A stretch of 64,000 nucleotides of DNA. Source: Methanolobus psychrophilus R15. Its GTDB lineage: Archaea; Halobacteriota; Methanosarcinia; Methanosarcinales; Methanosarcinaceae. Location of the stretch: assembly GCA_000306725.1 (NCBI GenBank), contig CP003083.1:2902042-2966041 (forward strand), written 5' to 3'. A program made the position numbers and the translations under genes. Positions 28,990-59,631 of the stretch are shown in pieces (position 1 is the first letter of the stretch; the number at the start of each line of letters is the position of its first letter). A model generated the notes under the pieces. It did no database searches, was not told the origin of the DNA, and saw only the letters and a program-made list of their open reading frames with translations.

Positions 28990-29368
28990 ATTACTCCTTA
29001 TTGATGAACTGTTTTCATTATTATAAATAATCTCTCATACCCCAAGAATACTTAAATCAGCTTTTTTTTAAAAAATTAGCATCCAAATTACAACATATTT
29101 AATTTCTGATATTAATTTTACATTGGATAAGAGTGGAAACCCATAGAAACACTGTATTCTGCTATCATTCTTCTTCCTGACCAATCCTGAATAGGTGTTA
29201 TCGAAAAATTCAAAGGCATGTAATTTGGAACAAGCTATTGAATTTAAGAACGGTTTACCTTAAATAAAAACAGATGATTCATACCAAGTGTCAGGATGAA
29301 GTTCCCGGGGCATTCATATAACACGAATGGGGGACAACTATATTTCCTGATGTAAGTGGGGTACATAA
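28990..29368 (+). promoter_or_regulatory. Leader and promoter of the zinc-knuckle microprotein array
   Basis: 379 bases. CTTAAATAAA near 29258-29268 is the likely TATA box, so the transcript would start near 29285. The leader contains TCAGGATGA (about 29290) and TTCCTGA (about 29344), which can pair, then AAGTGGGG before the first TTG. The same motifs recur in front of the inverted decayed copies near 30990. The leader tail also resembles the end of microprotein gene 2, so it may include the remnant of a lost first copy. Confidence 0.45.
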
Positions 29369-29503
29369 TTGAAACAAATAAGAGAATGTCCTGAGTGCAA
29401 GCCACGCCTGCATGAAATGGATATAAAAATACAGCATCGTGAGATATGTGGATACCGGACCAGAAAAGGTATTTTTTGTAATACGTATGGGGTGAGTATT
29501 TGA
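29369..29503 (+). CDS. CCHC zinc-knuckle microprotein, copy 1
   Basis: 44 residues from TTG 29369. C7-P-E-C10 and H23-x3-C27 give C-x2-C-x12-H-x3-C, a plausible single zinc site, followed by GYRTRKG. AAGTGGGG lies about seven bases before the TTG. The stop overlaps the start of copy 2 (the TGA shares bases with a TTG), typical of translational coupling. The family is not recognised. Confidence 0.6.
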   Translation: MKQIRECPECKPRLHEMDIKIQHREICGYRTRKGIFCNTYGVSI

Positions 29504-29652
29504 AACAATTAGAGGTATGTCCGGAATGCAAGGCACTCCTTAACTACATGGATCACAAAATACAGCACCGTGAAATATGCGGATATTGGACCAGGAAAAG
29601 TGTATTTCCTGATACGAGTGGGCTTCTAATGCAAGTGGGGGTAAGTGATTGA
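29500..29652 (+). CDS. CCHC zinc-knuckle microprotein, copy 2
   Basis: 50 residues from TTG 29500, inside the stop region of copy 1. Ligands Cys7, Cys10, His23 and Cys27 occupy the same positions; the core KIQHREICGYWTRK is shared with copy 1. GGGGTGAG precedes the start. The C-terminal tail is longer and different, and its coding sequence resembles the leader of copy 1. Confidence 0.6.
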   Translation: MKQLEVCPECKALLNYMDHKIQHREICGYWTRKSVFPDTSGLLMQVGVSD

Positions 29653-29786
29653 AACATCTAAAAGAATGCCCGGAATGTAAGGCACGCCTTCATTGCATGG
29701 ACCAAAATATACAACATTGTGTGATTTGTGGATACTGGACGCAGAAGGGGACTGCCAGAATGGATTCGGTAATGGTATTTGCATGA
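29649..29786 (+). CDS. CCHC zinc-knuckle microprotein, copy 3
   Basis: 45 residues from TTG 29649, overlapping the stop of copy 2 in the same way. Cys7, Cys10, His23 and Cys27 are kept and two further cysteines are added (HC at 15-16 and QHC at 22-24). GGGGGTAAG precedes the start. Ten bases separate its stop from the 77-residue gene. Confidence 0.6.
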   Translation: MKHLKECPECKARLHCMDQNIQHCVICGYWTQKGTARMDSVMVFA

Positions 29787-29795
29787 GGTGAGAAC

Positions 29796-30029
29796 ATGAA
29801 AATACAAGAAATGACATTTTGTTCCAGATGTAAAGTCACACTTAAAAAGCAAAGGCGTGGCGCTGACATATTGTATTTCTGTTCTGGCTGCGGGAACCAT
29901 GTATCCTGCGAACATTCCAATGAGGGGTGGGATGTGTACAGGAGTATAAAATTAAGAACACTGCTCAGGAAACTCCAGGTTGAGCATTCAGCAATAAATC
30001 AGGAGGTTGATCCATGTGTTATTGGATAA
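29796..30029 (+). CDS. Two-knuckle zinc-ribbon protein of the same cluster
   Basis: 77 residues from ATG 29796 after GAGGTGAGAAC. It has a full zinc ribbon, FCSRCKVTL and FCSGCGNHVSC, i.e. C-x2-C plus C-x2-C, then a helical basic C-terminus (YRSIKLRTLLRKLQVEHS). This is a longer relative or partner of the three microproteins before it. Nucleic-acid or protein binding is likely; the function is unknown. Confidence 0.65.
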   Translation: MKIQEMTFCSRCKVTLKKQRRGADILYFCSGCGNHVSCEHSNEGWDVYRSIKLRTLLRKLQVEHSAINQEVDPCVIG

Positions 30030-30160
30030 AATTCTGGGAAGGCGAAAGTGAAAAGGTATTGAGAGAGGTGCCTGTTCATGCCGATACGACAGAGGAAGCC
30101 AAAGATATGTTCAAGCATGATTTCCCAGGGGTTAACAACTTTGAGTTAATCTCCCCTTAA
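30014..30160 (+). CDS. 48-residue protein ending the microprotein cluster
   Basis: ATG 30014 is preceded by AGGAGG (30001-30006) at ideal spacing and overlaps the end of the zinc-ribbon gene by 16 bases. The product begins MCYWIKFWEGE and contains a helix TTEEAKDMFKHDFPGV; the fold looks like a small alpha/beta protein. Overlap and ribosome site argue that it belongs to the same operon. Confidence 0.6.
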   Translation: MCYWIKFWEGESEKVLREVPVHADTTEEAKDMFKHDFPGVNNFELISP

Positions 30161-30733
30161 ATTTTATTTTTATTTATTGACCGAATGGGGAGGTCAATCC
30201 CTTTTTTAGTGGTAATCTGTCAGTAAGTACCTGAAGATTACTCGCCCGATCTAAGCGGGATGGAGCAGTGTTAGTGAAGCAGGCCAGAAAGGCTATAGAA
30301 AAATAGTGAGCATCTTTGATGTCATACTGCAAGGAACTTCAAGACCCTTAGCAAACACCTCCCTGTCCCTCCACATGAGGATACACATAAAATTGTATCT
30401 GATGTTGTGGGCAGAATGAATCTGCCCAAACTTTTGTCAAAATAGATTTTAAACGTTCAATCAGGTTCCAATTCCAGACAGCGCCCGCTATAAAGCGCTA
30501 GGAAAAAGATGACTCTGAATGTTACTGAATTGATTGCTACACAGCTCATACCTGAACTGTATTAATTGTACAAGGTTGTTAAATAGGATATACATTATCA
30601 ACTTCAACTTGCCACATGCTGATGGACTTTCTTTGTGTCCTTTGCTTTCTACAATAAAACACTGCTTAAAAAAAGAAAACCCCGGCAAGCCGGGGTGATA
30701 CTTGATGTCTGTTATCGTTACCTACAATAGTGC
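30161..30733. other. Intergenic region between forward and inverted microprotein genes
   Basis: 573 bases. No convincing gene: a 66-codon minus frame at 30488-30688 has no ribosome site or familiar content. The only clear signal is a strong hairpin at 30679-30696. Patchy protein-like stretches suggest old, unrecognisable remnants. Confidence 0.3.
30662..30696 (-). terminator. Strong intrinsic-type terminator, minus strand
   Basis: ACCCCGG-CAAG-CCGGGGT (30679-30696) is a perfect 7-bp GC stem. Read on the minus strand it is followed by TTTCTTTTTTT. It lies 38 bases past the last minus-strand microprotein remnant and would end that transcript. Confidence 0.7.
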
Positions 30734-30826
30734 TCAGGGAACTATCAATATCTTTTTGATTGAATTACAAATATAAAGGTTAGATAGGCGCACCTTACAT
30801 TCAAGACATTCTGTTAGCTCTTTCAT
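30734..30826 (-). pseudogene. Decayed zinc-knuckle microprotein copy, truncated
   Basis: 30 residues from ATG 30826, with GAGGTGAATAT as ribosome site. It keeps MKELTECLECKVRLSNL (C-x2-C) but then diverges and ends, so the His/Cys half is lost. Minus strand, opposite to the intact cluster. Confidence 0.5.
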
Positions 30827-30851
30827 ATATTCACCTCGCATGAGTTGCGAA

Positions 30852-30956
30852 TTATGACTTCCCTGATTCAATGTCCACATATTTCACGGTGCTGTATTTT
30901 TTGTCCATGTTGTGTAAGCGTGGCTCACACTCAGGACACTCATTTACCTGTTTCAA
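30852..30956 (-). pseudogene. Decayed zinc-knuckle microprotein copy, frameshifted
   Basis: Starts at TTG 30956 with LKQVNECPECEPRLHNMDKK, matching the intact copies. At the A6 run (30897-30902) the frame shifts; one extra A would restore IQHREICGH. The leader in front also matches that of copy 1. One base separates it from an intact ligand set, so decay is recent or the base call is wrong. Confidence 0.5.
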
Positions 30957-31067
30957 TTTAATACCCACTTCAGTCAGGAATGTATTTTATCTCATCCTGA
31001 CTTCTGACAAGCAACCATACATTTAAAATAAACCGTTTAAAAGTCCAAAAAGCTACATAAATATTAT

Positions 31068-31808
31068 GGCATTGGTAAGTATATATAGTTATATATTATG
31101 ATTGCCTACACATAAAGCGTGAATTGTCCCAAGTGCAATAGCTTTAATAACAAAAAGAACGGTAAAATCAATGGACTCCAACGCTATCAATGCCATGAAT
31201 GTAGATACAATTATACAGTAGAACTTAAGTCTACTGCCTCTCCTCCCTCCGTTAAAAGACAAGCTTTACAGCTATACCTCGAAGGATTGGGATTTCGTTC
31301 AATAGGACGTTTTTTAGGAGTAAGTCATGTTTCGGTTCAAAATTGGATAAAGACATTCGGACAGGAATTAGAGGATCTAAAAAGCGAAAACGAGATAGAG
31401 ATCGTTGAATTAGACGAAATGCATACTTATATTGGAAACAAAAAAAATATTGTTGGATCTGGATTGCTGTTGATAGAGCTGGGAAAAAATTCATCAACTG
31501 CTCTTTTGGTAGCAGGGGAACCAAAACAGGACAAAAGCTCTGGGAGAAACTAGAGAAGAAAGAGATAGGGAAAGTGATGACCGATAACTGGAAAGCATAT
31601 GCAGAGTTTCTTCCAGATGAGGTTCATACACGATCAAAAGCAGAAACCTATACAGTGGAAGGATATAACAGCATATTCAGGCACTTTCTGGCAAGATTAC
31701 GAAGAAAAACAAAATGTTATACTAAGAGTCTTGAAATGCTAAAATACTCTGTTCTTCTTTTGATGAAGTATAGAAATAATGAACTAACTATACTTAATTA
31801 ACAATGCC
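31068..31808 (+). mobile_element. IS1-family insertion sequence, copy 1
   Basis: 741 bases. The ends are inverted: GGCATTGGTAAGTATATATAG at the left and GGCATTGTTAATTAAG read inwards from the right. The 8-bp target duplication AATATTAT flanks it exactly (31060-31067 and 31809-31816). Size, duplication length and a frameshifted transposase fit IS1. Intact duplication means a fairly recent insertion. Confidence 0.9.
31119..31801 (+). CDS. IS1-family transposase (two frames joined by -1 frameshift)
   Basis: Frame 1 (31119-31553, GTG start) has a zinc ribbon, CPKCNSFNNKKNG...CHEC, a helix-turn-helix (GFRSIGRFLGVSHVSVQNWI) and the first catalytic Asp (VELDEMHTYIG). At the A8 run (31440-31447) a -1 shift leads to KYCWIWIAVDR and continues to frame 2 (31574-31801: TDNWKAYAEFL, EGYNSIFRHFLARLRRKT), giving a DDE enzyme of about 227 residues. 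IS1 elements are known for such programmed shifts on A runs. The second copy in this window has the same A8. Confidence 0.85.
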
Positions 31809-32217: not shown

Positions 32218-33024
32218 TTACAGTTCTGTGATTGGTGTTGAGTCTTTCAGATAATACTCAAAGAGTTCCTTTGACCAGTCAATGGCCTTCTGGTTATGAC
32301 ACCTGACAATATAATGATCAACCTCGCCATCCTTTGTCAGGGTACTGTAGATGGTGGAAAAGTCATTCGTTGCAAAGAAGAGAGTATTGACTGGTTTTGA
32401 ATAGACGAAAAAATTAACTTTGTCTGATTCTACAAGCTTTTTGAAGTTGGTATACTGGTTCTTTCTGAGGTTCTCAAAAAGCTCCTTTGAAATAATGGTA
32501 GATACTACTACTCCGTTATCTGTCAATCCTTCATACACACTTGGAAAGTTCGGGTGAAATACGGTGGTGAGCCCAAATACTACCTTTGATCTCTTGGATT
32601 CTTCTTCAAAATCCTGTGGCAGACTATATATTTCCGAAATAGAGGGATTTCTTATCTCACACTTTCCAAGCCTCCCCACCCTGCTTAAAAGATGAGGTGG
32701 AAGAAATTCAAGGTCATGGGTTCCCCAGTAATCAATATCAACGTCCAACACTTCAACAGTATTTAAAATAGGAATCATGTCATCCACTATGAGTTTTCCC
32801 ACAGTTGTCAATTCATAGGTATCCGCATAATGATTAATAAAATAGTGTTCTTCAAGTACTTTCATCTGAGGAAGTAGTGCCTGTCTATTAGTACCAAGAC
32901 ACTTGAGAAGATATTCCATTTCCTGCGGTTCGTCTTTCAATAATAAAAGAGTATTCTTTCTTTTTTCAGACATAAAAAGGACATCAAGTAATGGTTTCTT
33001 CATAACAACACTTTCAATACCCAA
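32218..33024 (-). CDS. Msr/FilR1-type winged-helix regulator
   Basis: 268 residues (from TTG 33024; ATG 33003, MKKPLLDVLF, is the alternative). The N-terminal 85 residues form a winged helix (FMSEKRKNTLLLLKDEPQEMEYLLKCLGTNRQALLPQMKVLEEHYFI), followed by the FilR1/DUF1724 middle domain (TVEVLDVDIDYWGTHDLEFLPPHLL, SKVVFGLTTVFHPNFP). Msr proteins of this architecture control methanol and methylsulfide methyltransferase genes in Methanosarcina. No methyltransferase lies next to it, so the target is unknown. A 13-bp palindrome in its promoter (33082) is shared with the gene at 4582. Confidence 0.85.
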   Translation of the reverse strand: MGIESVVMKKPLLDVLFMSEKRKNTLLLLKDEPQEMEYLLKCLGTNRQALLPQMKVLEEHYFINHYADTYELTTVGKLIVDDMIPILNTVEVLDVDIDYWGTHDLEFLPPHLLSRVGRLGKCEIRNPSISEIYSLPQDFEEESKRSKVVFGLTTVFHPNFPSVYEGLTDNGVVVSTIISKELFENLRKNQYTNFKKLVESDKVNFFVYSKPVNTLFFATNDFSTIYSTLTKDGEVDHYIVRCHNQKAIDWSKELFEYYLKDSTPITEL

Positions 33025-33284: not shown

Positions 33285-33992
33285 AGAGTTGCCTGGAAAT
33301 ACTGGAATGAGTTTGCAAAGGCTGTTCCTGTAGAATATGATTTCTGTTCAAAAATAGATCAATACAGGAGAGCAAAAGGAGGAGGATATAAAGTTAATGT
33401 TATGTTCAACTATGGCTATGCTCTCCTTGAAGCTGAATGCCTGGGATCTATATACACTGTTGGTCTTGATTCTCATGTTGGTTTCTTGCATGAAATGAAT
33501 CCAAGCAAAGACAGTTTGGCCTATGACCTGCAAGAACCTTTCAGATTCCTTGTAGATCTCTCTGTTATCAATCTGATTGAATCAGAGAAAATGGAGAATA
33601 AGGATTTTATTAGGACTGAGAGCTATTCTCTCAGGTTAAAGCCTTCAGGAGCTAAGAAAGTTACTGAAGAGTTTAATTTATGGATGAACAAGAAAGTTCC
33701 CTACAAGAAGCAGTCTGTAATGTGGAGTTATGCTTTATTGCTGAAAACCAGAGAGCTAGCTCAGTTCCTTGTTGAGAAAAAGCAGACTCTTGATTTTAGT
33801 AATCTTGAATCTATTATACAAAGGCATGATTCAGAGGATATAAGGCAAAAGATACTAAGCATCTCTTATACAGATTGGGAGAATATGGGATTCTCCAAAG
33901 GTACTCTCCATTACATGAAGAAGAATGCTGAAGTTGATAAGCCATTTACTCTTAATGCTCATGTTAAGGAAAGGTTGGAAGGGATGGAGTAA
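33285..33992 (+). pseudogene. cas1: Truncated orphan cas1 (C-terminal two thirds)
   Basis: From the in-frame stop at 33282 the frame runs WKYWNEFAKAVPVEYDF, then VNVMFNYGYALLEAECLG, GLDSHVGFLHEM and LAYDLQEPFRFLVD. These are Cas1 landmarks: the NYGYALL helix, the conserved His of GFLH, and the D-L-x-E-x-x-R motif. The N-terminal beta domain and the first catalytic Glu region (about 130 residues) are absent. The C-terminus carries WENMGFSKGTLHYMKKNA...KPFTLNAHVKERL, an extension seen in some archaeal Cas1. No repeat array, cas2 or other cas gene is visible in the window. The ATG at 33402 would give only 196 residues. It is probably a relic of a lost CRISPR locus or Cas1-containing mobile element. 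Confidence 0.75.
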
Positions 33993-45705: not shown

Positions 45706-46917
45706 ATGGATTTAAAAAAAATAAGTATTAGTCATAAAATATTGTTAATATCTTTGTTATTAACTATATTACCCGTAACTATTGTTGGTTTTTATGCTTA
45801 CGAGCAAACAGAAGCTGGTACTTGGTCTCAATTAGAAGAGCATTTGAATGACCAATCATTCCTTGAAAAAGTTTATATAGAGTCTACTTTTTCCCTTGCA
45901 CAAGATAAAGTAAATAGTGACTTAGGAGTTGCAAGGGCCGTTTTTTACTCTAACGGTAATCCTGAAATTGTTGATGGACAAATGATACTAGGAGGAGATT
46001 ATGTTGTCAACAATAATTTTGAGATTGTCGATAATGTCAAGAATATGGTAGGAGGGACTGCTACTATATTTCAGGTACTGGATGGAGAGGCTGTAAGAAT
46101 CTCTACTAACGTTATTATTGATGAGGGAGAAAGAGCAGTCGGTACCAAAGTGTCGCAACCAGTGTATGAGACAGTCGTCAACAAAGGTGAAACGTTCTAC
46201 GGAAGGGCATGGGTGGTCAATGCTTGGTATCTGACTGCATACGAACCGATCAGAAATAGTGCTGGTGAGATTATAGGTATTCTTTACGTTGGTGTTCTTG
46301 AAGATCCATTTATCAGTACGATAAAGAATCATATGGGTGGAATTGTTGTAGGTGAGACTGGATATGTCTATATAATGGATTCAGAAGGAAATCTTGTACT
46401 TCACCCTATTATGGAAGGTGAGAATATCTATGAGCATGACTTTGTAAAAGAGATTATCAATAACAAAGAAGGTATTATTAATTATGAGTGGCAAGGTCGC
46501 GAAAAAATTGCAGGCTACACGTATTATGAACCAAATGATTGGTATATAGTATCAAATACTTATTGTGAAGAGTTTGCAGGTCCTCTACTGGCAATTAGGA
46601 ACAGTTTAATAATAGCTGTTTTAGTCTTTGTAATTCTTGGTGTTTTAGCTTCATTCCTTCTAAGCAAATCTATTTCTGATGGAATTCAAAAAATAGTTAC
46701 TGAATTTGATGACATAACCAATGCTACTCTTCAGGGTAAACTAGACAGGAGAGCAAATATTGATGTAGGTATTGATTTAGAGGCGATACCCAGGGGTTTC
46801 AATCAGGTACTGGATGCTGTGAAAGAGAATGATGAAAAGCTCCAGGCATTCATAGACAATGTCCCTGTTGGGATGTTCCGTACTATAGTGTTCAACGCAA
46901 CTTACTACACGTATTAA
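45706..46917 (+). pseudogene. Cache-HAMP sensor, 5' part of an IS-disrupted kinase gene
   Basis: The first 393 codons are host sequence: transmembrane helix (about 14-32), a large extracellular double-Cache domain (VARAVFYSNGNPEIVDGQ; GRAWVVNAWYLTAYEPIRN; GETGYVYIMDSEGNLVLHP), a second helix (about 300-322) and HAMP, then the start of a PAS (AFIDNVPVGMFRT). At 46886 the IS630 begins and the last residues come from the element. The rest of the PAS and the kinase core appear after 48443. TCTGGAGTATGCTAG precedes the ATG. Confidence 0.8.
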
Positions 46918-47982
46918 TGTTTATCTTATCTTATGGCGGGGAAAGAACAAATTCTGATTGACCGAAAGGTAATTCTCGACGAGATTAACTATTTGATCAC
47001 ACACGAGAACAATTCAAGAGTGTTGAAAAGGCTCTATTTTGTTAAATTTAGATATTTAGGGGATTCTGTAGAAGAAGCTGCTACTAAAGTAGGAGTGACT
47101 AAGAAAACAGGATATTGCTGGCAAGAAAGTTGGAATAAAGGCGGCTATGCCGCCTTAATGCCAAATTTTGGCGGAGGTAGGAAATCCAAACTTACTGATG
47201 AACAAAAAAAGGAATTAAGAGCTTTGTTGGAAAATAAGGATTACTGGACTACAAGAGAAGTCTGGAAGTTAATAAAGGAAAAATATGGCGTAGAATATTC
47301 AGAGAAACAAGTAGGAGTTATACTTCACAGTTTTAACATGTATCACTCAAAGCCATATCCCCTTGACTACAGAAGACCTAAAAACGCTGAAGAGATCTTA
47401 AAAAAAACTTACCGAAGCAATTCCAAAAAATATTGGTCAAGATGAGCAGTATATCATAGGTTTTCTGGATGAATCTTCACCACAAACAAAAGCAAACACG
47501 CAAAGATTATGGTCATTTAAAAAACCGTTGATAATAAAAAATACGGATTACGTTAAAGCAAATGCATTTGCGTTTTATTCGATCAACGGGAACAGTATCA
47601 TTGATTTTATGAAAAGCTCAAAAACAGAAGATGTGTGTGAATTCCTGGAAAAAATTGTAGAGCAAAACCCAGGGAAAAGAATAATTCTTGTTCTCGATAA
47701 TGCAAGATCGCATCATGCAAAGAAAACGATAAGTAAAGCGAGAGATTTAAAAATAACACTTGTGTTCCTACCACCTTATTCACCTGATCTAAATCCAGTA
47801 GAATTTGTCTGGAAAACAATCAAAAGAGAAGTGTCAGTCAAATTTGTCAAATCAAAAGAACATTTGAGGAATATTATCAAAATGGAATTTATGAGGATAG
47901 AGAGCTCATTATCGTTTGCAAAAAAATGGATAGAAACATTTAATGCACAAATAAAAAGTGTGAATTGTTGAGTTAGGGACTA
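46886..47982 (+). mobile_element. IS630-family insertion sequence, copy 1
   Basis: 1097 bases from TAGTGTTCAACGCAAC to GTTGAGTTAGGGACTA. The ends are imperfect inverted repeats (right end inwards TAGTCCCTAACTCAAC) flanked by the TA target duplication (46884-46885 and 47983-47984). A near-identical 1097-base copy lies at 58535. It interrupts the sensor-kinase gene beginning at 45706. Confidence 0.9.
46933..47971 (+). CDS. IS630-family transposase in two frames
   Basis: Frame 1 (46933-47445) has the helix-turn-helix part (DSVEEAATKVGVTKKTGYCW) and the linker to YSEKQVGVILHSF. At the A8 run near 47400-47407 the downstream frame is +1 (or -2): LTEAIPKNIGQDEQY, FLDESSPQTKAN (first catalytic Asp), then frame 2 (from 47528) with VLDNARSHHAKK (second Asp) and PPYSPDLNPVEFVWK (Glu). 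The first Asp is read only if the shift occurs. Both copies in the window show the same run and shift, so it is a property of the element. About 345 residues when joined. Confidence 0.85.
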
Positions 47983-53833: not shown

Positions 53834-54573
53834 GGCATTGTTAATTAAACATCGCTAGTTCTTTATTTCTGTACTTCATTAACAGGAGAACAGAGTATCT
53901 CAACATTTCAAGACTCTTTGAATAACATTTAGACTTTCTTCTCAATCTTGCCAGGAAATGCCTAAATATGCTGTTATATCCTTCTACGGTATATGTTTCA
54001 GCTTTGGATCGAGTATGAATAACCTCTGGAAGAAACTCTGCATATGCTTTCCAGTGATCGGTCATGACTTCTTTTATTTCCTTATCCTTTAGTATTTCCC
54101 AGAGTTGTCTTCCAGTTTCCGTGCCTCTGCTACCAAAAGAGCAGTTGATGAACTTTTTCCCAATCCTATCAACAGCAATCCAGATCCAGCAATATTTTTT
54201 TTGTTGCCTATATAAGTGTGCATTTCATCTAATTCAACAATCTCAATCTCATTTTCACTTTTTAGGTCCTCTAACTCCTGACCAAATTTCTTAATCCAAT
54301 TATAAACAGAAACATGACTTACTCCCAAAAATCTTCCGATCGAACGAAATCCTAATCCTTCAAGATAGAGTTGTAAAGCCTGCCTTTTAATGGAAGTAGA
54401 ACTCGCAGTCGATTTTATCTCGACTGTATAGTTATATCCGCAATCATAACATTTGTAGCGTTGACGTTCATCGACTTTCCCATTCTTTTTGTGGTTGGAA
54501 CTCTTACATTTAGGGCAGTTCATACTGAAGTATAGGCTTTCATCCTATATACCTCTATTTACTTAACAATGCC
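53834..54573 (-). mobile_element. IS1-family insertion sequence, copy 2
   Basis: 740 bases with GGCATTGTTAA at both ends (inverted) and an exact 8-bp target duplication CTAAATAA (53826-53833 and 54574-54581). Diverged from copy 1 but of the same type. It separates the downstream tetR operator from the DUF1638 gene. Confidence 0.9.
53841..54523 (-). CDS. IS1-family transposase, copy 2 (-1 frameshift)
   Basis: Frame 1 (54523-54089, ATG start) has CPKCKSSNHKKNG...CYDC, the helix-turn-helix GFRSIGRFLGVSHVSVYNWI and VELDEMHTYIG. A -1 shift at the A8 run (54185-54192) leads to KYCWIWIAVDRIGKKF and frame 2 ending at 53841 (TDHWKAYAEFL, EGYNSIFRHFLARLRRKS). The joined frame is open throughout, so the enzyme may be functional. 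It differs from copy 1 at many residues. Confidence 0.85.
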
Positions 54574-58534: not shown

Positions 58535-59631
58535 TAGTGTTCAACGCAACTTACTACACGTATTAATGTTTATCTTATCTTATGGCGGGGAAAGAACAAA
58601 TTCTGATTGACCGAAAGGTAATTCTCGACGAGATTAACGATTTGATCACACACGAGAACAATTCAAGAGTGTTGAAAAGGCTCTATTTTGTTAAATTTAG
58701 ATATTTAGGGGATTCTGTAGAAGAAGCTGCTATTAAAGTAGGAGTGACTAAGAAAACAGGATATTGCTGGCAAGAAAGTTGGAATAAAGGCGGCTATGCC
58801 GCCTTAATGCCAAATTTTGGCGGAGGTAGGAAATCCAAACTTACTGATGAACAAAAAAAGGAATTAAGAGCTTTGTTGGAAAATAAGGATTACTGGACTA
58901 CAAGAGAAGTCTGGAAGTTAATAAAGGAAAAATATGGCGTAGAATATTCAGAGAAACAAGTAGGAGTTATACTTCACAGTTTTAACATGTATCACTCAAA
59001 GCCATATCCCCTTGACTACAGAAGACCTAAAAACGCTGAAGAGATCTTAAAAAAAACTAACCGAAGCAATTCCAAAAAATATTGGTCAAGATGAGCAGTA
59101 TATCATAGGTTTTCTGGATGAATCTTCACCACAAACAAAAGCAAACACGCAAAGATTATGGTCATTTAAAAAACCGTTGATAATAAAAAATACGGATTAC
59201 GTTAAAGCAAATGCATTTGCGTTTTATTCGATCAACGGGAACAGTATCATTGATTTTATGAAAAGCTCAAAAACAGAAGATGTGTGTGAATTCCTGGAAA
59301 AAATTGTAGAGCAAAACCCAGGGAAAAGAATAATTCTTGTTCTCGATAATGCAAGATCGCATCATGCAAAGAAAACGATAAGTAAAGCGAGAGATTTAAA
59401 AATAACACTTGTGTTCCTACCACCTTATTCACCTGATCTAAATCCAGTAGAATTTGTCTGGAAAACAATCAAAAGAGAAGTGTCAGTCAAATTTGTCAAA
59501 TCAAAAGAACATTTGAGGAATATTATCAAAATGGAATTTATGAGGATAGAGAGCTCATTATCGTTTGCAAAAAAATGGATAGAAACATTTAATGCACAAA
59601 TAAAAAGTGTGATTTGTTGAGTTAGGGACTA
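58535..59631 (+). mobile_element. IS630-family insertion sequence, copy 2
   Basis: 1097 bases, same ends as copy 1 and the same TA duplication (58533-58534, 59632-59633). Only a handful of base changes separate the copies, so transposition is recent. Confidence 0.9.
58582..59620 (+). CDS. IS630-family transposase in two frames, copy 2
   Basis: Same layout as the transposase at 46933: frame 1 58582-59094, A8 run near 59049-59056, frame 2 from 59177 to 59620. Differences from copy 1 are few (NDLITH for NYLITH, AAIK for AATK, TNRSN for TYRSN, SVIC for SVNC). The catalytic triad is complete only after the +1/-2 shift. Confidence 0.85.

Follow-up and report, generated by a model that had tools for sequence, protein, structure and literature searches.

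A zinc-ribbon microprotein family of the Methanosarcinaceae and its probable expansion in a Methanolobus operon with a covarying leader RNA

A five-gene operon of Methanolobus carries three tandem copies of a Cys-rich microprotein (A1, A2 and A3), followed by genes for a second ribbon protein (B) and for a 48-residue protein (C). By sequence comparison, families A and B are unnamed, and A is restricted to the Methanosarcinaceae and near-universal there. Taking the anatomy of the locus, its origin and its reading as a set of regulated zinc ribbons together, it is probable that the A-B-C locus represents a Methanolobus-lineage expansion of family A, transcribed from a dedicated promoter through a folded 5' leader together with its partner ribbon B and with C, which is specific to the genus.

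Anatomy of the operon, its promoter and its leader

The window, meaning the whole 64,000-nt stretch of DNA analyzed (G000:C1:2902042-2966041), is part of a 3.07-Mb Methanolobus genome. The features of the operon, and of a relic of a second one that faces it, are listed below; A' denotes a subtype of family A.

29239..29270, plus strand: dedicated BRE/TATA-like promoter element, TGAATTTAAGAACGGTTTACCTTAAATAAAAA, lying about 25 nt 5' of the leader
29288..29371, plus strand: structured 5' leader RNA, with P1 UCAGGA/UCCUGA, P2 GUUCCC/GGGGAC and P3 CAUUC/GAAUG
29369..29503, plus strand: A1, 44 aa, A' subtype, TTG start, candidate ligands Cys-Cys-His-Cys, R24
29500..29652, plus strand: A2, 50 aa, A' subtype, TTG start, tail SVFPDTSGLLMQVGVSD
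29649..29786, plus strand: A3, 45 aa, canonical family-A Cys4 zinc-ribbon microprotein, TTG start
29796..30029, plus strand: B, 77-aa partner with a single Cys4 ribbon (C9, C12, C29, C32)
30014..30160, plus strand: C, 48 aa, found only in Methanolobus, with its own AGGAGG and a 16-nt overlap with B
30177..30207, plus strand: terminator-like hairpin TTGACC...GGTCAA with a T run after it, read from the sequence
30734..31003, minus strand: relic A'-A operon, the second in the window and oriented toward the first
30954-31003, minus strand: relic leader, reduced to P1, which still pairs (GUCAGGA/UUCCUGAC)
30852-30968, minus strand: relic A', frameshifted
30734-30830, minus strand: relic A, truncated

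The preliminary description had reported three ORFs of 44–50 codons, each started by TTG and joined at TTGA overlaps, and the coordinates agree, the ORFs having 44, 50 and 45 codons; the 48-aa ORF with its AGGAGG is also present as claimed. A1 and A2, and likewise A2 and A3, overlap by 4 nt at TTGA. The three genes form a tandem array of a 131-nt unit whose copies have diverged to DNA identities of 67–73%, and the hairpin downstream of C is likely the end of the operon. Because relatives recur in many genomes and are under purifying selection, the ORFs are genes and not chance occurrences, which bears out the proposal of an operon of real, diverged and selected Cys-rich microproteins.

Upstream of the operon lie two elements outside the coordinates of the preliminary description and not mentioned in it. 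The promoter pattern TGAATTTAA..ACGGTTTA..TTAAATAAAAA is common to 22 aligned A operons. Searched with up to three mismatches in eight genomes, it was found at 15 sites in six of them, all at A operons, while the reversed control gave zero sites in the eight. As judged from this pattern, the promoter is dedicated to A operons. Most A operons of about eight Methanolobus genomes carry both the promoter and a leader of about 75 nt.

At its 3' end the leader of the window operon has the Shine-Dalgarno sequence GUGGGGU, followed by the UUG start. The same layout is seen in 22 A operons, in which GUCAGGA...UUCCUGA, about 25 nt past the promoter pattern, surrounds one or two stems and is followed by a Shine-Dalgarno sequence and UUG or AUG. 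Covariation, computed over 17 pairs in a MAFFT alignment of 12 leaders, was 0.265 as compared to 0.180 when shuffled (0/500); sliding gave no value above 0.162. The 17 pairs were 91.4% paired, with both sides changed in five of them, and CG and UA pairs alternate among leaders in P3. Taken by itself, the leader of the window operon had a minimum free energy no better than that of shuffles (z 0.15); the case for a leader structure rests on covariation.

A covariance model of the leader, searched against 112 genomes, gave strong matches only at A operons, in eight Methanolobus genomes. A further match (G041:C40) falls at an A gene that has decayed but retains its promoter. Two others, at E 0.03–0.05, are at chance level for 112 genomes. 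No Rfam model matches the leader even at E 10, so a covarying archaeal leader RNA is added that Rfam does not contain. The leader was not found at stand-alone C genes, and two A-C operons (L063 and L068) have a leader remnant or a different leader. Outside the leader-bearing Methanolobus subclade, family A occurs without it, which indicates that A does not depend on this leader in its basic role. At Methanosarcina A-B loci (L111–L118), upstream regions have a different pattern, CUGUCAGG...CCUGAUCUUGCAG, which the covariance model does not reach and which may be, from its sequence, a distant version of the leader.

A simple Shine-Dalgarno-sequestering switch was not supported for the leader, as folding leaves the Shine-Dalgarno sequence mostly unpaired in most leaders. 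Feedback through the leader is likely: the leader would serve as a site setting operon output, most simply by being bound by the A protein itself.

Distribution, metal ligands and selection

Among 112 Methanosarcinaceae genomes, family A was found in 95, representing 11 of 14 genera, family B in 80, and family C in 10, all of them Methanolobus. In a 393-genome sample of the phylum, 60 of the 62 genomes with family-A matches (1e-5) were Methanosarcinaceae, and the matches in the other two were marginal. B lies immediately 3' of A at most of 60 sampled loci, other genera included, a conserved pairing that the preliminary description had not noted. C occurs as A-B-C, as A-C or alone. Sequence searches of Pfam, NCBIfam, PADLOC, PHROGs and PDB gave no convincing family, in agreement with the earlier statement that no named system has this layout. 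These results define a near-universal, unnamed Methanosarcinaceae pair, A-B, with testable ligands.

Cys24 is present in 57 of 64 aligned family-A members, A3 among them. In the canonical alignment of 43 sequences, C7, P8, C10, C24, C27, Y29, W30 and R37 are invariant; many relatives have Y, F, V or I at position 23. Because Cys24 is so widely kept, and is invariant in the canonical alignment, family A is read as a Cys4 ribbon. The preliminary description had seen Cys7, Cys10, His23 and Cys27 in all three copies, and all four are there, but the family's third ligand is Cys24 and not His23. Its CCHC zinc knuckle does not hold as a signature: the spacing is C-x2-C-x12-H-x3-C and not C-x2-C-x4-H-x4-C, C24 is conserved, and Pfam zf-CCHC does not match the A proteins. 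Similarly, the ORF of its 77-residue two-knuckle protein is real (B), but it encodes one CxxC...CxxC ribbon in which the four Cys are invariant. A3 and B would each bind one metal ion.

Within the window's three copies, only A1 and A2 are without C24, which is replaced by Arg. They belong to the A' subtype, for which seven members are known from five species, always 5' of a canonical A and with the sequence KIQHRE[IM]CG. C7, C10, H23 and C27 are kept in 7/7 A' members, and it is plausible from the alignments that A' has a CCHC site, as a derived state; A' would then bind metal via these four residues. Support for A' monophyly in a tree of A proteins was 32–55.

Codon models were fitted to a 32-codon core and compared to a null model in which omega was set to 1 and kappa to 2.5. 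Omega was 0.34 for A' (log-likelihood -387.5, as compared to -394.2 at omega 1) and 0.21 for canonical A (-843.2, as compared to -878.0). The preliminary description had named two outcomes that would speak against its proposal, a lack of conserved ligands in other genomes and a lack of purifying selection on the copies; instead, both conserved ligands and purifying selection were found.

Tandem copies and their TTGA junctions

Every A' gene stops at the TGA within TTGA, overlapping the next TTG by 4 nt (stop included) at 7/7 junctions in five species. The exact overlap in the preliminary description was thus upheld, but its TGA is partly automatic, since any TTG start whose second codon begins with A contains a TGA in the next frame, and the second codon starts with A in each of these genes. 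With the TGA itself coming free, the informative part is that the frame is kept through A' tails of unequal length (44, 50 and 51 aa in total). These overlaps would couple translation along the array.

The A2 tail DNA (29594-29622) is 79% identical to part of the leader (29332-29360), and an internal junction in another operon (L078, 3364-3422) gives a weak match to the leader model (E 0.008). From this tail-leader repeat and junction match we conclude, at the level of sequence, that the leader and A were duplicated, that the end of the first copy was lost and that the leader became a coding tail. A1 and A2 would then be tandem duplicates with C-termini replaced by translated leader, which makes each stop overlap the TTG of the following gene. 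The aligned genomes would thus show an untranslated leader turning into coding sequence, as the tail of a new gene, and giving rise to overlapping-gene junctions. In the case of L067 (G056), an A1 head is fused to an A2 tail, as expected from contraction of a tandem A array.

The loss of C24, together with loss of the conserved C-terminal TARLDSxMVFA, could also mean that A1 and A2 are decaying duplicates kept merely as translated spacers, acting as uORF-like couplers before a working A3-B-C. Birth and death are common nearby and in related loci, as seen in the minus-strand relic, an A-B copy that has lost its stop and is truncated (L064), a truncated B (L066) and a further relic (L145). However, the omega of the A' core argues against neutrality, and the seven copies of five species contain no stop or frameshift while keeping their candidate ligands. 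Decay is considered rather unlikely as the explanation of A1 and A2. The more specific proposal of an archaeal autoregulatory system, in which the zinc-ribbon microprotein binds its own mRNA at the new structured 5' leader and ligand-shifted CCHC paralogues, born from a translated duplicated leader, tune this binding, is itself offered only as a possibility, and a somewhat doubtful one.

An IS1-like transposase copy, split into two frames (31119-31801, plus strand), lies just 5' of the relic operon, and a second copy is present at 54089-54523 (minus strand). An element related to these copies is also found 5' of the same operon type in L066.

Possible roles and genomic surroundings

AlphaFold2 predicted a three-stranded ribbon for A (pLDDT 70) and a beta-beta-alpha-beta fold for C (pLDDT 84). 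The top match of A, both by profile (E 0.001) and by fold, was TFS4, which regulates archaeal RNA polymerase. For C, the top PDB fold match was T7 Gp2 (TM 0.74, prob 0.99, E 0.18, 22% identity). Foldseek gave no match with E < 0.001. Zinc ribbons look alike whatever their function, and neither the TFS4 nor the Gp2 match is significant alone.

The archaeal TFS4/RPB9-type N-terminal zinc ribbon resembles A in its CPxC...CxxCGY arrangement. A differs in being without the C-terminal TFIIS-type ribbon and in scoring at best 18.6 bits as compared to an NCBIfam cut-off of 120, and was rejected as a TFS/RPB9 transcription factor on these grounds. C shares the small beta-beta-alpha-beta fold, as predicted, with the T7 RNA polymerase inhibitor Gp2, although archaeal RNA polymerase is a different target. 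Assignment of C to RNA_pol_inhib (PF16857) was rejected, with 12.8 bits as compared to a Pfam gathering threshold of 27 and a fold similarity that is not significant. Matches of C in BFVD were numerous but none was significant, and membership in a viral family was also rejected. For the ribosome-bound SriA/SriB, one of the fold matches, a literature search gave nothing relevant. The A, B and C proteins would be small adaptors on a core machine. Transcription is the best guess for that machine because A is nearest to a TFS4/RPB9-type N-ribbon and C to T7 Gp2, but as a target suggested by models it is held tentatively, at less than even confidence.

The haloarchaeal C(P)XCG micro-proteins (Brz, HVO_2753, HVO_0758), which are shorter than 70 aa, have two Cys pairs and occur as many paralogues per genome (PMC2253796, PMC11241148), are the closest described kind. 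Like families A and B, they are small, archaeal, Cys-paired, multi-paralogue proteins missed by annotation. Unlike them, A and B are restricted to methanogens, with no sequence-family match above cut-off between the two kinds, and an A-B operon, tandem ligand-shifted copies and a structured leader were not found described for the C(P)XCG micro-proteins. A3 (CPECK, CVICG) is below 70 aa and has two C(P)XC(G)-like motifs under a loosened definition (PMC11241148), whereas A1 and A2, without a second Cys pair, fall short of two motifs. B has 77 aa in the window and 41 aa in some relatives. Most deletion mutants of haloarchaeal C(P)XCG micro-proteins show some phenotype (PMC11241148). Methanolobus and Methanosarcina relatives are culturable, and function is therefore directly testable.

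Other small Methanosarcinaceae proteins were also considered. MtrI consists of helices and ligates cobalt through its Cys40 (PMC12774963), and MtrR is reported only from Methanosarcina (PMC13370731); both were set aside as relatives. M. mazei sORF_06, a possible relative of A or B, has four clustered conserved Cys; when it is overexpressed under nitrogen limitation, stationary phase comes earlier (PMC11456600).

With four Cys per ~45 aa and several copies per genome, the proteins might instead be metal or thiol buffers, for storage or redox sensing, with a leader that responds to metal or to redox state. Metals other than zinc, or no metal, are found in some haloarchaeal C(P)XCG proteins (PMC11241148). 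The surroundings of stand-alone C genes (L065, L073, L077, L088 and L091) are alike in part, and the neighbors, read by eye, include flavodiiron-like, hemerythrin-like and GerW-like genes, a setting that fits such buffers and hints that C may be linked to oxygen or redox. However, the Cys density amounts to one structural site and not a metallothionein, the conserved non-ligand residues Y29, W30, T31 and R37 point to a binding surface, and the contexts of A and B are not those of metal transport. Buffering is an unlikely role for these proteins.

Small genes in series, near IS1-like and IS630-like elements and a Cas1 fragment, could also suggest a toxin-antitoxin, anti-defense or other mobile-element accessory operon, and the preliminary description had listed antitoxin or anti-defense roles. 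Against this, family A is near-universal in one archaeal family, no relative of the operon proteins was found in IMG/VR, phage or plasmid records, and no PADLOC or PHROG family rose above noise for them. A viral or plasmid origin was rejected on the same lack of relatives, and a role of this type is highly improbable.

A lone C-terminal part of Cas1 is encoded at 33402-33992 (plus strand; Pfam Cas_Cas1, 2.4e-27); no further cas gene was noticed in adjacent ORFs. Two near-identical IS630-like elements are present at 46933-47971 and 58582-59620 (plus strand), the first directly after an apparent truncated sensor gene (45706-46917). A FilR1/Msr-type regulator (PF08350), one of 34 such genes in the genome, is encoded at 32218-33024 (minus strand). 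Genes of this type lie within ~3 kb of several A operons and directly 5' of A in G041:C41 and G040:C2, which looks, from gene positions, like more than chance.
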